From the NCBI RefSeq assembly GCF_021560015.1, contig NZ_CP073588.1, positions 2,108,001 through 2,172,000 on the forward strand: a stretch of 64,000 bases of DNA, written 5' to 3'. This document shows positions 36,893-46,295 of this stretch, piece after piece. The notes under the pieces are model-generated. The model had not been told where the DNA came from, ran no database searches, and saw nothing but the letters and a program-made list of their open reading frames with translations. This DNA is from Shewanella vesiculosa (GTDB lineage Bacteria; Pseudomonadota; Gammaproteobacteria; Enterobacterales; Shewanellaceae). How positions within the stretch are numbered: position 1 is the stretch's first letter; each line of letters opens with the position of its first letter. Made by a program: the position numbers and the translations under genes.

Positions 36893-38642
36893 TTAAGGCT
36901 TCATGGTGTCGTCATAAGATATTACGCAGTTTCGACCATTATGTTTGGCTCGATAAAGGGCTAAATCAGCACGATGAATTAAAGGATCAAGGCTTAAGTC
37001 ATCTTTAGTAACAGTGCTGACACCACAACTGACTGTGACCGTAAAATCGTGTCCAGAGAAACGAGTGTTAATATTGGCTACCTCATTACGAATACGTTCG
37101 GCAAAATCAACAGCCATATCTTCGGCTTGCTTTGGCATAAAGACAGCAAACTCTTCGCCGCCCATTCGGGTAAAAATATCTGTCGGTTTCAACATGCCCT
37201 CGATGACATTAGTCACTTTTTTTAATACCCAGTCACCTGTACCGTGGCCATATTGGTCATTAATATTTTTAAATAGATCAAGATCCATTAACACAACAGA
37301 GAATCTTTCACCTATTGTTTGAGCTTGAATAAATTCATTTTCCGCCATTTCTTGTCCAGTACGGCGATTAAAAATACCGGTTAATCCATCTCGCTGCGCT
37401 TGTTTCATAAATTGATTACGTTGCAGCCAAGCCGAGATCAATAACAATAATAAACCGACAGAAAGACCTACAAGTAAAGTAGAGAACATGATAGATGAAC
37501 TTTTTTCCTTCATAAACAAATCTTTTTGTTTCATCAGTAACTCGTGATCTTGGATCAAACTGCTATTTTCACGGCTTTTTTTCAACACTATCAAAGCGAG
37601 CCATTTGATAAGCATTTTCTTTGACTTTCTGCTCATCAAGCAGCTGCTGGCCAAGTGCAGAAGCGACAACTTGAAACTGGTATGCTTTATCAAATTGCCC
37701 GCGTTTACCTGCAATTAAAGAAAGAGTTTCGTTAACTCGTTTTTTCACTATCATGTTACTGGGTTTATTAGGTAACGCATTAACCATTTGCGCATACATT
37801 TCAGCTTGTTGGTAATCGCCTAAATGAAAATAAATAACACTTAAATAAGACCTTATCTCATTAATCTCAACTTCAAATTTAAACTTTTGGTAACGCTCTA
37901 AAGCAACAAGATACAAACTTTCTGCAGCCTCATATTGTCCTTTATCAAACAACACTGTAGCCAAGCCTCTAATAGACATGATTTCAATTAATGGCAGACC
38001 ATGATCTTTACAATAAGCTTGAGTGTCTTTAAATAATGTATCCGCTTGGTCAAAATGAGCTAACTTTGAATGGGCCACTGACAGGTATAACATTGAATAA
38101 CATTGATCTTTTGGGTCTTTACCTTGATTTAAATTCAGCGACAATTTTGCTATACGTAACATTTCATCATAAGCGCCCAGCTGTAAATACACATTCATCA
38201 GACGGTTATAAGACTTTATTTTGATACTTTGGTTTTGATAGTTATCAATACGAGAAAGATTTTCTTCCAGAAGAGAAAAGGCTTTTTGGTAGTTGCTAAG
38301 CCCAATATTTGCAGTGATTTTCAATAGATAAATATTAGTGAGTTCTTCACCAGTTGGACCGTCTATCAGTGCTTCATCGAAAGCTTTATCTGCTGCGACA
38401 AAATGACCTAAATAAAGCTCTTTGGAACCGACCAACCTATGTAGGCGGCTGTGTTGTGATGAGGTAAGTGACGATTCAGAGGCTAATACGGTTTCAATCT
38501 TTTTAATTGCATAACCAGTATCTGTCGCCAAATATTGTTCAATAGTATCGAGTTCTTTATCATAATCGATATTGTCAGCTATCGCCGCGCGGCTAAAAAG
38601 CAACACGATGATAATAAAAAAATACCTCGATGTATGATGCAA
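36893..38642 (-). pseudogene. TPR-GGDEF diguanylate cyclase, one +1 frameshift
   Basis: A signal peptide (FFIIIVLLFSRAAIA) is followed by a periplasmic region of about seven TPR-like units, a TM helix (TLLVGLSVGLLLLLISAWL) and a GGDEF domain (DGLTGIFNRRTGQEM, LMDLDLFKNINDQYGHGTGDWVLK, MGGEEFAVFMPK). The active-site motif is GGEEF and no RxxD inhibitory site precedes it. The frame breaks at T7 (37576-37582 on plus). With one base fewer, VEKSRENSSLIQDHELL joins the parts into about 582 residues. It makes c-di-GMP from GTP if intact. Its start lies 6 bp after the stop of the borosin precursor gene, so the two are almost certainly co-transcribed. Confidence 0.85.
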
Positions 38643-38648
38643 GAATAA

Positions 38649-38861
38649 TTACTCTGTAGGGTTAGTTATAATCATGTACATAGCCATGTCTTTATCACCA
38701 ACTAACTGGCTCACACGTGCTTTATCTCCCGACATTACAGCGTCAATCTCTTCTTGTGTTAATCCATTTGATTTCATGACAGCACGAGGATCAAGCTTAT
38801 ATGCTTCTAATAACAGGGCATTAGTCGCAAGCTCAGTAAAAAAGGCACTCATGTTTGACAT
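38649..38861 (-). CDS. Split-borosin precursor peptide (SonA-like)
   Basis: A 70-residue peptide. Residues 1-58 form an all-helical leader resembling the borosin-binding domain of SonA from Shewanella oneidensis (MSAFFTELATNALLLEAYKLDP, GLTQEEIDAVMSGD). The last ten residues, MYMIITNPTE, are the likely core, rich in the hydrophobic residues whose backbone amides are N-methylated in borosins. The methyltransferase gene is 330 bp upstream on the same strand. The peptide gene is immediately followed by the TPR-GGDEF gene. The assignment rests on size, leader pattern and pairing, not on a database search. Confidence 0.82.
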   Translation of the reverse strand: MSNMSAFFTELATNALLLEAYKLDPRAVMKSNGLTQEEIDAVMSGDKARVSQLVGDKDMAMYMIITNPTE

Positions 38862-39190
38862 ATTGTCACTCTCTGTTTTAATAATTTTATTGTTAATTTA
38901 TGGGCATAATGACATAACATCAGACAATTCAACACATAAAGTACATTCAACTGATTTAACTAGCTTTTTAAACTTGTGCGTACTTTACACTCAAGTCAGT
39001 TTAACAACAAACGCTGATAGTTGTTAACTTGTATCGGCTAACAATTTTAACAAAAAACTGACTATAAAAAAATTAACAATTGCAACTTCATCTTCAATTA
39101 ATCTGCTGTCTATATCAGGTCAAGATATAAGCCAAAACATGCAGCGTAGAGCACGATTATGCCATATTATCTTTTAATGTTAACAGATAC

Positions 39191-40027
39191 TTAACCTATA
39201 TCTGATTCGGTAATACCTAACTTAGCCAACATCTCATGGTTTAATGTGATCTGTTTAGCTGGAGGGATCAATAGTGTGCTAATTGGGGTCAACCTAGCCT
39301 CAGGTAAAGACGACAAAGCCATGCGCTCGATTACTGGTGATTGAAATGGCAAATTGGCGGCTTCATATATCATCACTTGATGATCAAGAGGATACCATTG
39401 CGTTAAGTGCTCAACCAAAATCTGTAACCTCGCTTTAGTGGTACTAAATTGAGTCAAAGTATGTTCACCCGCTAGGGCTATCTGCCACAGTAAAAGATGC
39501 GTAGTAGGATCGGGCACATGATGATAAATCATGAACTGAGTCGCTTCAAAACTTTGATGGCCACTATTACCAGGATCGATTCCTAGGTCAGCCCACAAAC
39601 AAGCTTCCGCAGAAATACCCGGTAACATACTCGCATCATACCCCTCCAAACGAGCTTGTTTTATGGATAAATGCCCAACACAAGCAAATACTCCAGGATG
39701 ACCATATAAGGCGCATACGACTAACTTACCTAGGCGTACTTCACGCAAAACAGCATTAACCATTTCAGCATAAGTAGCACGGCGGTTTTTTATCTCGCCG
39801 CATTGTGCGTAATAAGGCTGCAGCGAACGCACGTCAGAATTAAGCGACATTAGCCATCGTTCAGAAAAACCATCGGGCACTAACGAAAACACCACATCAG
39901 CATGCTCAATATAACTCAAACTCAACGCGCCTATTTGCCCTGCTAACTGCAATCCTGTTCCAACACAAATCAGACGGCCTTTTTTTACATTGGATAATGT
40001 TGCACTTTGCGATTGTTGAATAGTCAT
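39191..40027 (-). CDS. Borosin alpha-N-methyltransferase (SonM-like)
   Basis: A SAM-dependent methyltransferase of the tetrapyrrole-methylase fold, 278 residues. It has the N-terminal GTG loop (ICVGTGLQ, G23-G25) and the Y-G-H-P-G-V-F motif at 108-114. The catalytic pattern of borosin N-methyltransferases is visible as Y72/Y73 then R82/R83 and Y86 (in NRRATYAEM). Cobalamin-pathway methylases lack that R-x3-Y motif. It should install successive backbone N-methyl groups on the core of the adjacent 70-residue peptide. The 329-bp spacer between the two genes holds no gene but room for a second promoter. Confidence 0.85.
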   Translation of the reverse strand: MTIQQSQSATLSNVKKGRLICVGTGLQLAGQIGALSLSYIEHADVVFSLVPDGFSERWLMSLNSDVRSLQPYYAQCGEIKNRRATYAEMVNAVLREVRLGKLVVCALYGHPGVFACVGHLSIKQARLEGYDASMLPGISAEACLWADLGIDPGNSGHQSFEATQFMIYHHVPDPTTHLLLWQIALAGEHTLTQFSTTKARLQILVEHLTQWYPLDHQVMIYEAANLPFQSPVIERMALSSLPEARLTPISTLLIPPAKQITLNHEMLAKLGITESDIG

Positions 40028-40334: not shown

Positions 40335-40838
40335 ATGATAAACAAAAAACAAAGTCTTACCCTTGTAAGCGCAGTAGCGCTTTCATTATCTCTTAGCGGA
40401 TGCAGTGTATTTGACTGGTTAATATATAAACCAGATGTGCCACAAGGCAACTACATGGAAACACAACAAGTCGAAAAACTTCGTGTCGACATGACTAAAG
40501 CACAAGCAGAATATATTTTAGGTCGCCCAGTATTACGCGACAGCTTCTCTGATGACACTTGGTACTATGTCTATCATTTCAAAAGTGGTCGAGATGCTAG
40601 CATTACTCATAAAGAGTTGATCATTCACTTTAATGGCGACACAATTTCCAGTGTTAGCGGCGATTACGATCTCAGTAAAGAATTTAATACTCCGCTGGAA
40701 CAAAGCTCATTGCCGTCCGTTAACGACCCAGATATGAAGCCTTTACTACCTGAAATTCGCCCAGATGCAAAACCGTTAGTTGAAGAACAACGTCCGGCAT
40801 TAAAGAACCAGGCAGAAAATGATAATACACCAACATAA
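40335..40838 (+). CDS. bamE: Outer membrane assembly factor BamE (SmpA)
   Basis: A lipoprotein of the BAM complex. The signal peptide ends LSLSGCSVFDWLIYKPDVPQGNY, and the conserved BamE core follows (VEKLRVDMTKAQAEYILGRPVLRDSFSDDTWYYVYHFK). At 167 residues it is longer than E. coli BamE because of a Pro/Asp-rich C-terminal tail (about 110-167), usual for Shewanella. Transcribed alone; a strong hairpin follows. The 307-bp spacer to the left shows no gene. Confidence 0.93.
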   Translation: MINKKQSLTLVSAVALSLSLSGCSVFDWLIYKPDVPQGNYMETQQVEKLRVDMTKAQAEYILGRPVLRDSFSDDTWYYVYHFKSGRDASITHKELIIHFNGDTISSVSGDYDLSKEFNTPLEQSSLPSVNDPDMKPLLPEIRPDAKPLVEEQRPALKNQAENDNTPT

Positions 40839-43811: not shown

Positions 43812-44036
43812 TTACCATGGCTCACCGCAATTAGGACAATAACCTGAATCATGTGAAATCATCCCATAGAATGAATTGCACTCTTCACATTTTTTATTCA
43901 TACCTACAGGTTGCGAAACCTCGTTTGGAATCATCTGCTTCCCACAAACATTGCAAGTTGGATGAGCAGACCCAGAAAACACTTGAACTTGTACATGACC
44001 TAATGGGCACTTCATTCCAAATGCTACTGTGATCAT
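43812..44036 (-). CDS. Zinc-ribbon protein, prophage cargo
   Basis: A protein of 74 residues with three C-x2-C-type pairs (HPTCNVCGKQM, KKCEECNSF, GYCPNCGEPW), preceded by a single Cys and His (KCPLGHVQV). The last two pairs could form one zinc ribbon and the first pair plus Cys/His a second. It overlaps the upstream gene by 4 bp (ATGA), so the two are coupled. It lies outside the structural block, next to attL, where temperate phages often carry accessory genes. The function is unknown. Confidence 0.75.
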   Translation of the reverse strand: MITVAFGMKCPLGHVQVQVFSGSAHPTCNVCGKQMIPNEVSQPVGMNKKCEECNSFYGMISHDSGYCPNCGEPW

Positions 44037-44461
44037 ATCTTTACTCCGGTAATATTTTTTGAATTTTTACCTTCAACATTTACTACAGTACCAGGCTTAA
44101 ACGAGACAGAACGGTCTGATGAGACATCTATGCCTGTAACATTATCAGCTCCCTCCCCTCTAACATTGATTGTCCCACTTACTTCAACGAAGGGAGCCCC
44201 TTTTTGTTGGGCATCATTTAACATCTCAGTGATACATACATCAATTTTCTGAACTAACTTGCATAGAAGGTCTAGCTGAATTTCTTGCTTTTCAGCCTTT
44301 ACTTCTTTGTCACCGGCGGTTAATGCATGTAAAAGAGAATCCCCCACTACAGGAATCAGCTTAACCAGCGCGCCAAAAGCAGCTTTGTTTCTGATCGACT
44401 TACCTTCCTTTTCAAGCTTATCAGAAATCACTTTATCAATACTCGAACAAGAATTGCTCAT
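44033..44461 (-). CDS. Unknown two-part protein, prophage cargo
   Basis: A protein of 142 residues that I do not recognise. The N-terminal half (1-90) is helical and amphipathic, with a hydrophobic stretch AAFGALVKLIPVVGDSLLHALTAG (about 27-50) that may insert into a membrane. The C-terminal half (95-142) is a short beta-rich repeat: VSGTINVRGEGADNVTGIDV and VNVEGKNSKNITGVKI share the pattern of N-V-x-G-x(3-4)-N-[VI]-T-G. The upstream 65-95 bases hold a pentanucleotide repeat. It is coupled to the zinc-ribbon gene. Candidate phage-defence or lysogenic-conversion pair, by position only. Confidence 0.7.
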   Translation of the reverse strand: MSNSCSSIDKVISDKLEKEGKSIRNKAAFGALVKLIPVVGDSLLHALTAGDKEVKAEKQEIQLDLLCKLVQKIDVCITEMLNDAQQKGAPFVEVSGTINVRGEGADNVTGIDVSSDRSVSFKPGTVVNVEGKNSKNITGVKI

Positions 44462-44525
44462 AGTTACTCTTACTTTGACTATTTATTGAAATTGCGTTCT
44501 AACGTGAGTTGTGACAATGCCACAC

Positions 44526-44555
44526 CTAAACTAAACTAAACTAAACTAAACTAAA
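44526..44555. repeat. CTAAA x6 simple-sequence repeat
   Basis: Six perfect copies of CTAAA, 65 bases upstream of the cargo gene start. Because it is in the promoter region, copy-number change could alter promoter spacing and switch expression. The rest of the 44462-44840 spacer shows no gene. Confidence 0.85.
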
Positions 44556-44840
44556 CAGTTATGCCATAAACATTTTGACCCGTTTAGAATAAAAATCAAT
44601 TATTATTAATATATTACAAGCAATTTGTAAAATTCACAATTGCGATTCACTTCTCTTCGAACTCCCAATGCTCAACACCTTTTGGGATTAAGTGTTTGTA
44701 AATTCGTCTACATTACAAAGCAAGGATTTCATGCTTGGATTACTGCAAATTAATTAGCGTGTTTTGTGGGAAGTTAATTCAGCGGTGCCCTTTATCTAGT
44801 TAGATAAAGGGTATAGTTAAGTTTGAAGGGATTAGCTTTA

Positions 44841-45602
44841 TCACTTAGTTATTGGGTCAAGTCTGCCTTTTTGGCTGCTGGCTTCTGATGCTTTGCCATT
44901 GAAGTCGCCTGACTGGTTTGGTGGTTGCGTTGAACCTGGCCCAGATGCAATGCCCGGATGTGTGTGGCCTGCGCATGTTGTTGCTAATGCGCTAACAGTG
45001 GCCATGAGTTCTGATAGTAGTTTCAGCACATTTTCGCCATCGCTACCTATCCATGTTTTGGGGCTGCGGTGGTCTTGTTCTATGCTGGCTGTGACTTTGC
45101 GGGTTTCACATTGTAGTTCGGCCAGTTTACCAATGATGTCTTTTAATGATTCATCGGTTTTGTTCTCAAAGTTACCTTTGTCGTCGATATGCTGATAAAC
45201 CCCATCGCGTACTTGGGTGCGGGTTTCGCCCTCTTTGATAGCAGGTAAGTCCCAACCAAAGGGTAATACAGTTCTGATGAATGGTTTATCTGGTCTGCCA
45301 TAGGCAAAAGCAATTTCGACAATTGCACCAATAGCCGGCGGTTCTAGTCGGCCTGCTTTATTGCCTGCACCTGGTAATGGTAACGGTACGGCTTGAAGTA
45401 CCTTTGATTTTGTCTCAGTGCCATTTTCGTCAAGCAGCTGCACGTCAACTGCATAACGTGGATAAAATGGATCACTGCCGCGTTCTCCGTCTATGTCGGG
45501 TAATTCCGGCAAGGAAACTACTTTACCCCAACGTGGTAAATGCAGCTTTGAGGTTAGTTCTGGGAATAAGCGGCGAATAATTCTATTGATTATGGTTTCC
45601 AT
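44841..45602 (-). CDS. Baseplate spike-like protein (gpV-type OB fold)
   Basis: A protein of 253 residues. The N-terminal half has an OB-fold signature of baseplate spikes (WGKVVSLPELPDIDGERGSDPFYPRYAVDVQLLD, PAIGAIVEIAFAYGRPDKPFIRTVLP). The second half is helical with a C-terminal GHTHPGIASGPGS segment, the H-x-H type loop seen where metal binds near the tip of spike proteins. It is the last gene of the tail block before the cargo genes and overlaps nothing. Confidence 0.7.
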   Translation of the reverse strand: METIINRIIRRLFPELTSKLHLPRWGKVVSLPELPDIDGERGSDPFYPRYAVDVQLLDENGTETKSKVLQAVPLPLPGAGNKAGRLEPPAIGAIVEIAFAYGRPDKPFIRTVLPFGWDLPAIKEGETRTQVRDGVYQHIDDKGNFENKTDESLKDIIGKLAELQCETRKVTASIEQDHRSPKTWIGSDGENVLKLLSELMATVSALATTCAGHTHPGIASGPGSTQPPNQSGDFNGKASEASSQKGRLDPITK

Positions 45603-45605
45603 ATA

Positions 45606-46295
45606 TCACCACGTTATGGTCATTTGAGTTTCTTTAAACTCAACGGTTTTGATGCGGCTACCGTTGGCTAATACGTTTGGCCTAATCATTGGTGCTGCTG
45701 GTATGGTTGCCGTTCGTCCGGCTTGGTGGTTAGTCATTAATCTGTTTTGGATGACAATTGGCTTATCTGCCCAAAAGCTATCTTGATAGCTACCAACGTA
45801 TATTTTGCCATTACCTTGCTGTTGCCAAATAAAATCGTCAATACGGAATGAACGGCCAATGTTGTCTAGCATGGCGTAACCTGAACTGTCGCAGTAAAAA
45901 CACGGTATTGCGGTATCAGCGTAAGCGCTATCAGGTACTAAAAACTCAAGCCCTGTTAATTGGCTTAGTTCGTCTAATACTTGCTTTAAGGTTGGATGAC
46001 GTAGCATGACGCTGTAATTCAGTGCTAACGATGCTGATAATTCACGACAAAATAAGGTATACCAGCCATTAACTGCAGGCATGACACGTTCAACATAACC
46101 TATAAACACTCTATCAATCATGTCACCCCAACCAAGATCCACCGCAACAATCGCATGCTGTTTAACTTTGGTGTTTACGGTGATTTGGCAATTACCTGGT
46201 GTAGTTGATTGCAGCACGACCCAATGATCAGCCATATCGACTTTTTGATTGTCGATATAGGCTCTGGCAATAAATCGTGCATTAGGGGTACTCAT
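45606..46295 (-). CDS. Phage baseplate hub-like protein
   Basis: A protein of 229 residues. The repeated beta-strand pattern and segments such as DRVFIGYVERVMPAVNGWYTLFCRELSASLALNYSVMLRHPTLKQVLDELSQLTGLEFL resemble hub proteins of the gpD/gp44 class that hold the spike to the tail tube. It is three bases from the spike gene and shares a base with the upstream gene, as in other HP1/K139-like tails. I am unsure of the exact family. Confidence 0.55.
   Translation of the reverse strand: MSTPNARFIARAYIDNQKVDMADHWVVLQSTTPGNCQITVNTKVKQHAIVAVDLGWGDMIDRVFIGYVERVMPAVNGWYTLFCRELSASLALNYSVMLRHPTLKQVLDELSQLTGLEFLVPDSAYADTAIPCFYCDSSGYAMLDNIGRSFRIDDFIWQQQGNGKIYVGSYQDSFWADKPIVIQNRLMTNHQAGRTATIPAAPMIRPNVLANGSRIKTVEFKETQMTITW

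Follow-up and report, generated by a model that had tools for sequence, protein, structure and literature searches.

A candidate TPR sensor partner of split borosins in Shewanella and its relatives, covarying with the peptide core at the main locus

Introduction

Why does a gene for a borosin precursor peptide lie directly ahead of a gene for a diguanylate cyclase? The question is raised by a locus of Shewanella vesiculosa (assembly GCF_021560015.1, contig NZ_CP073588.1) within a stretch of 64,000 nucleotides (positions 2,108,001 to 2,172,000, forward strand), which as a whole is termed the window here. The original prediction for this DNA was a split borosin locus with a new core next to a TPR-GGDEF gene, the methylated peptide and c-di-GMP signalling belonging to one programme. 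The features of the locus, in positions of the window, are as follows.

40335..40838, plus strand: BamE, divergent conserved neighbour (PF04355, E 1.6e-23)
39191..40027, minus strand: SonM orthologue, borosin alpha-N-methyltransferase, 278 aa (PDB SonM 7ltc, E 4.9e-131; TP_methylase PF00590)
38649..38861, minus strand: SonA orthologue, precursor, 70 aa (PDB SonA 7ltc_B, E 2.2e-15, residues 1-67)
about residues 1-56 of the precursor: leader (borosin-binding domain), by homology to SonA
38652..38681, minus strand: predicted core MYMIITNPTE, residues 61-70, from ungapped alignment with SonA
37569..38642, minus strand: 357-aa open frame with a TTG start, TPR sensor domain and a signal-peptide-like start (by eye)
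37576..37582, minus strand: A-run at which the TPR/GGDEF frame breaks (from the sequence)
36893..37714, minus strand: open frame for the GGDEF domain, preceded by a hydrophobic, transmembrane-like segment (PF00990, E 1.5e-42; translation)
about 36929-37399, minus strand: GGDEF domain with the motif GGEEF (PF00990)

In the direction of transcription, the minus strand carries the enzyme, the precursor peptide, the TPR frame and then the overlapping GGDEF frame. Downstream of bamE on the plus strand are rnfH, a gene that we presume to be ratA-like (Pfam gives Polyketide_cyc) and smpB. At 44033-46295 there are minus-strand ORFs, two of them phage-tail-like by eye, without a Pfam match. A scan for promoters and terminators gave counts not above those of shuffled sequences (7 versus 5.1 +/- 2.9; 1 versus 0.7 +/- 0.9).

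Enzyme and precursor

The original prediction of a 70-residue peptide and a tetrapyrrole-methylase-like borosin enzyme about 330 bp upstream of it is borne out by the two ORFs, which are separated by 329 bp, and by the matches of the enzyme to TP_methylase and to the SonM structures. Because the enzyme (E 4.9e-131) and the peptide (E 2.2e-15) match SonM and SonA, respectively, the locus is not a chance arrangement, and the borosin itself is of a known kind. The catalytic Y-...-R-x3-Y pattern holds as well: Y73, R82, Y86 and Y108 are invariant in 22 aligned enzymes, and with the offset of 15 given by the alignment they correspond to the SonM residues Y58, R67, Y71 and Y93 (PMC8429565). As in type IV split borosins, enzyme and precursor are thus separately encoded, the SonM catalytic residues are present and the leader is a borosin-binding domain by homology. 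Assignment of the enzyme to the precorrin/cobalamin methylases was considered and rejected, as the NCBIfam scores for YabN (31.8 against a cut-off of 525 bits) and CobI (25 against 163) are far below those required; comparison with SonM/SonA contradicts both such a grouping and a leader unlike that of SonA.

SonA is methylated at L63 and I65 (PMC8429565), and in the ungapped alignment these residues correspond to M63 and I65 of the window core. By homology, backbone N-methylation of the window core would be expected at M63/I65, and the peptide of the enzyme-precursor-sensor trio is probably backbone-methylated. The core differs from that of SonA, but as ordinary between-species variation, so that the earlier description of it as new does not hold.

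Among the other loci, L041 has two different precursors that flank a second, truncated copy of the enzyme (an ORF of 200 aa). Less hydrophobic cores, for example KKHIRNPD, are found in L048, L052, L061, L062, L066, L073 and L074; the TPR partners of these seven loci give weak or no tblastn matches from the TPR domain of the window.

The sensor of the window

The TPR frame begins 6 bp after the peptide stop, as predicted, at 38642 and with TTG as the putative start. A single intact TPR-GGDEF gene is not confirmed in the window: the two parts lie in different frames, and the frame between them is lost at the A-run. In the relatives L032 and L033, TPR and GGDEF are encoded in a single uninterrupted frame of 581 and 582 aa, respectively. 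A programmed frameshift joining the two parts was considered, and nothing speaks in its favour, the relatives being simply in frame; the break is therefore taken as a lesion or a sequence error. As the sensor is interrupted, signalling may be broken in this genome, unless the A-run contains a sequence error. The GGDEF part is likewise split in L060 and L082. Elsewhere in the genome of the window, at least two more GGDEF genes look split or stop-containing (G000:C1:2625045-2625517 and G000:C1:3639047-3639538), so that the window is not the only place with decay or sequence error. The GGDEF part itself bears the GG[DE]EF motif of diguanylate cyclases, as GGEEF.

By eye, the sensor has a signal-peptide-like start and a hydrophobic stretch ahead of GGDEF, from which the TPR domain is predicted to be periplasmic; C181 and C211, invariant in 31 TPR sequences, suit this location. 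The structure model of the TPR domain is all helical (pLDDT 91.3). In profile searches the domain matches RapF (E 2.4e-9) and NprR (2.8e-5), and by fold the model resembles, among others, pheromone-bound Rap (TM 0.67) and NprR. Ranked by Z, eukaryotic TPRs are at the top (APPBP2 and APC/C, 24.2-27.8), followed by Rap at 24.0, and in the E-value ranking of Foldseek consensus TPRs and LGN come first. Since many other TPRs match, some with higher scores, a peptide receptor cannot be recognised from the fold alone.

Distribution of the sensor partner

Three sets of loci around enzyme matches were compared. The relatives' set includes 89 loci (64 of 99 relatives had a match). The named set consists of the best 80 of 592 loci found, and is therefore weighted to close relatives. 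The distant set comprises 15 loci; class- and phylum-wide samples matched in 15 of 369 and 15 of 398 genomes, and six weak matches were excluded.

A GGDEF domain is encoded within 3.3 kb of the enzyme in 80 of the 89 relatives' loci and a histidine kinase in seven (either one in 87). The corresponding figures are 74/80 for GGDEF in the named set and 9/15 for either domain in the class- and phylum-wide loci. Counted by distinct enzyme sequences, mostly from Shewanella, 151 of 164 have one of the two domains within this distance; these locus counts are not independent, because species recur between the sets and Shewanella supplies the majority of the loci. The chance of finding GGDEF in such an interval is about 8%, given 58 GGDEF matches in the 4.78-Mb genome of the window. 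The GGDEF neighbour is conserved in most relatives' and named loci and is not accidental.

The 13 sequences without such a partner are of several kinds. Four are near a contig end (L065, L161, L175 and L203); at L065 a TPR match is still in view, and at L203 there is one on the other strand. At L153 a TPR match is accompanied by a partial, weakly scoring GGDEF. In L195 (5836-7966, Kangiellaceae), a precursor and then an enzyme are followed by two TPR proteins with signal-like starts and without a GGDEF or kinase domain. L114, L213-L217 and L225 have no partner of this kind, and all of these except L114 belong to the distant set (6/15). L213-L217 and L225 encode distant borosin-like methyltransferases of a different branch, with no TPR sensor nearby, and in L214, L215 and L217 a short ORF is located directly upstream of the enzyme.

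Pfam analysis of 18 partners revealed GGDEF in 11 and HisKA plus HATPase in seven, some with receiver domains. TPR repeats were found in 16 of the 18 at E 1e-3, several under the curated cut-offs. TPR was missed by Pfam in L110 and L113, the latter being a place that the TPR profile detects at E 1.8e-42; it was also missed in L153 and L219, both of which are matched by tblastn with TPR probes. This profile, built from 31 domains, was run against 60 genomes with a threshold of E 1e-20. It detected the TPR subfamily in 34 of the 36 that have a strong enzyme match and in none of the 24 others, the latter including G030, which has one weak enzyme fragment (E 2.3e-4). The two enzyme genomes that the profile missed, G072 (L117 and L119) and G074 (L104), have kinase-type loci. 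Compared by eye, 51 of the 52 profile places are at most about 6 kb from an enzyme gene; the sole exception (G065:C1:72666-73703) is a 367-aa open frame. Going by these genomes, this TPR subfamily is one that belongs with borosins.

One might suppose that an unrelated diguanylate cyclase has been retained by synteny alone, and the main Shewanella locus is indeed syntenic with bamE in all 52 loci of its family (L031-L082). A similar partner, however, accompanies a paralogous second locus and recurs in further families and under different gene orders. The phylogenetic profile of the TPR subfamily also argues against this explanation, which is very improbable.

Gene order and output domains

Most loci are arranged as enzyme, precursor, sensor. 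The order precursor-sensor-enzyme occurs in Kangiella, Undibacterium, Rhodoferax and a Burkholderiaceae MAG, and in L219 the precursor-sensor pair is directed away from the enzyme. The usual sensor, by sequence, has a precursor gene directly before it and consists of a signal-peptide-like start, a TPR superhelix, a transmembrane-like stretch and GGDEF or a histidine kinase. In L173, L190, L204 and L206, where one enzyme was seen, a precursor precedes each of two sensors. In six of the ten tandem loci (L151, L156, L159, L174, L192 and L200), no second precursor was found for the second sensor, and a precursor for every sensor is therefore not the rule.

Judged from gene content, the predicted TPR sensor is a more constant partner than GGDEF, and both the output domain and the gene order vary. 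Of the proposal that borosin and c-di-GMP form one programme, the linkage stands; the restriction to c-di-GMP looks too narrow, because a kinase replaces GGDEF in 7/89 relatives' loci and L195 has no output domain.

In the second locus family (L085-L103 and L168-L206), many precursors have a hydrophobic stretch of the CPDVVCxxxPAEDE type followed by an acidic tail, and release would therefore need two cuts. Between enzyme and precursor, L168-L196 (Rheinheimera and similar) and L171 (Colwellia) often have an additional ORF, about 165-200 aa long, that looks acetyltransferase-like by eye.

Block differences between close lineages

Comparison of close relatives reveals a sharply bounded difference. 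Between L039 and each of L036, L038 and L040, BamE is 99-100%, the enzyme 99%, the leader 94-96% and GGDEF 98% identical; the core is 21-29% and the TPR domain 50-51% identical. At the DNA level, L040 and L039 are 92-100% identical over the enzyme and 95-97% over most of the leader. Identity is 38-62% from the core to about sensor residue 310 and 85-100% thereafter, the break being at the leader/core junction. The candidate ligand and the sensing domain thus differ as a block between conserved flanks, as in a pherotype pair. It was also considered whether the precursor of L039 and L056 is a relic of the other type; this was rejected, as on alignment both turn out to have similar extended precursors of 93 aa.

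L042 and L054 provide a further case: the enzyme is 97% and GGDEF 99% identical, but the core is 36% and the TPR domain 53% identical. L042 shares its core (77%) and TPR domain (91%) with the more distant L040. The DNA pattern of L054 versus L042 is similar to that described above, and identity recovers by about sensor residue 345.

Among 38 close pairs (enzyme identity at least 88%), TPR identity of at most 62% goes with core identity of at most 50% in 22 of 25, and TPR identity of at least 67% goes with core identity of at least 64% in 12 of 13. The total agreement is 34/38, for pairs that share members and with cut-offs picked after the table had been seen.

Covariation of core and TPR domain

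Distance matrices were compared by multiple regression with 2000 permutations, BamE serving as the control for species distance. From the 52 main loci, L065 (contig end) and L046 (in which the precursor overlaps the sensor ORF and was missed by the rule) were removed, leaving 50; removal of L031, L060 and L082, with a broken sensor frame, gave the 47 loci tested. A set of 40 loci was obtained by omitting seven with unusual cores.

In the 47 loci, core distance depends on TPR distance (beta 0.74, P 0.0005; 0.61 with the leader included), and its dependence on GGDEF or enzyme distance is not significant. The core also tracks BamE, less strongly (0.27, P 0.0095; 0.22, P 0.037). In the 40-locus set the coefficients are 0.55 for TPR (0.54 with the leader) and 0.37-0.39 for BamE. 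Over all main-locus models the BamE coefficient, that is, species distance, is 0.22-0.39 (P 0.0005-0.037). The core-TPR effect survives the use of ranks and dereplication, at a smaller size (0.31-0.58). The leader follows the enzyme (0.57, P 0.002) and not the TPR domain (0.00, P 0.996) in the 40-locus set; in the full 47-locus set it tracks TPR too (0.36, P 0.0055).

The second locus family was analysed as 44 precursor-sensor pairs without the BamE control. Twelve sensors had been dropped, since the rule gave no precursor; by eye some have one (L094, L095 and L206). In this family core distance depends on TPR (0.37) about as much as on GGDEF (0.38), and the strongest dependence of the leader is on TPR (0.59). 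Because this result is mixed, specificity of the core-TPR relation is shown for the main locus only.

Because the core covaries with the TPR domain and differs together with it as a block, we infer a ligand-receptor module, in which the methylated core would be the ligand of the periplasmic TPR sensor and the allelic types would resemble pherotypes. From the sequence comparisons we regard this as slightly better founded than its negation. Its support also includes the linkage of enzyme and sensor, the phylogenetic profile, the joint movement of precursor and sensor, and the resemblance of the TPR model to Rap and NprR among many other TPRs. The existence of cores that are not hydrophobic (KKHIRNPD type) counts against such a module, as do the dependence of the core on BamE, the less specific outcome in the second locus family, the six tandem sensors with no precursor of their own, the six distant loci that lack a partner and the broken sensor frame of the window.

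Covariation could also be an artefact of linkage: a fast-evolving TPR domain would be exchanged or diverge independently, and the core, located between the conserved leader and the TPR domain, would hitch-hike. As the two are physically adjacent, shared recombination tracts could carry both; the exchanged pairs are highly homologous only in leader/enzyme and GGDEF, and the second locus family is less specific. The correlation, however, does not drop with distance from the core: it is 0.32 at sensor residues 6-45, beside the core, and 0.48-0.50 roughly 1 kb further on, at residues 326-385, the near segments being more saturated because they are more diverged. The co-occurrence of enzyme and TPR subfamily also speaks against linkage alone, which we regard as an unlikely explanation.

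A possible peptide-receptor module

If the ligand-receptor module is correct, the following steps are envisaged. The SonM-type enzyme would bind the SonA-type leader and N-methylate the backbone of the C-terminal core, as shown by others for homologues. A protease would then free the methylated core, which would cross the inner membrane and bind its own periplasmic TPR domain. Binding would alter the activity of the cytoplasmic diguanylate cyclase or kinase, and allelic core-TPR types would act like pherotypes. Among the genes that were annotated, none could be recognised as an exporter or a leader protease.

The lack of a recognised exporter among these genes is also compatible with the sensing of a cargo. 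The borosin could be a metabolite with metal, redox or envelope activity that builds up in the periplasm and is sensed there by the TPR protein, with no cell-cell signalling involved. The same genomic facts would fit this explanation, and the TPR proteins of L195, which have no output domain, would be in line with it. The presence of allelic types in close relatives, though, looks more like signal specificity than like a conserved chemical activity, and we assign to cargo sensing the same low probability as to linkage.

Toxin-immunity pairs undergo similar allelic block exchange. A core toxic to relatives, with the TPR protein as its antidote, would accordingly co-vary with it and be swapped together with it. 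An antidote role is unexpected, however, because the TPR protein bears enzymatic output domains that differ between lineages, and a bacteriocin/immunity system is improbable.

The ligand-receptor module can be extended to a more general proposal: the split borosins of Shewanella and its relatives might be N-methylated Gram-negative pheromones with periplasmic TPR receptors and exchangeable outputs (c-di-GMP synthesis or a phosphorelay), with pherotypes arising by exchange of core and TPR domain. This wider version is tentative, and in our estimate more probably wrong than right. Were it true, bacterial cell-cell communication would gain a backbone-methylated peptide signal with a periplasmic TPR receptor, and would be tied to c-di-GMP in the well-studied genus Shewanella. 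That the sensing domain changes with the core offers a direct and cheap functional test, namely whether a methylated core switches only the sensor of its own allele.

Comparison with known systems

The TPR superhelix is shared with the RRNPP receptors (Rap-Phr and NprR-NprX), as indicated by the RapF, NprR and Rap-CSF matches described above. In Rap-Phr and NprR-NprX, too, the peptide gene adjoins the receptor gene. Unlike in RRNPP systems, the TPR domain here is predicted to be periplasmic, the output is GGDEF or a kinase, the hosts are Gram-negative and the peptide would be backbone N-methylated. The agr/com pherotype systems of Gram-positive bacteria resemble the present loci: between conserved flanks, one block of difference takes in the peptide together with the receptor's sensing half. 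Their peptide chemistry and receptor fold are other than borosin and TPR.

Control of a GGDEF domain by a TPR domain, as proposed here, is known from RcbAB of V. vulnificus, in which the TPR domain of RcbB represses RcbB activity; the same source describes two cyclases of V. parahaemolyticus whose TPR domains are predicted to lie in the periplasm (PMC12282931). RcbB differs in being predicted to be cytoplasmic and in having a protein partner, and the available part of that paper makes no mention of borosins (PMC12282931).

SonM/SonA of Shewanella oneidensis (SO1478/SO1479), a type IV split borosin, is the closest relative: enzyme and precursor are orthologous, catalytic residues and leader are alike, and the core sequence of the window differs. 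The main text on this system mentions no sensor, GGDEF, diguanylate or tetratricopeptide (PMC8429565). The TPR-GGDEF gene is present in ANA-3 (L131), a strain related to S. oneidensis MR-1. The legend of Figure 1 in PMC11395268 lists GGDEF among borosin architectures. The earlier statement that the association had not been described is therefore only partly true. In the literature search, borosin with diguanylate cyclase gave nothing and borosin with GGDEF only PMC11395268; a TPR sensor, kinase replacement, covariation or allelic exchange was not found for borosins in the literature covered, which left the main surveys outside its scope, so that absence is not proven. The arrangement is thus partly known: the kind of borosin and the GGDEF link have precedents, and the dedicated TPR sensor partner and the covariation of core and TPR domain are apparently new.
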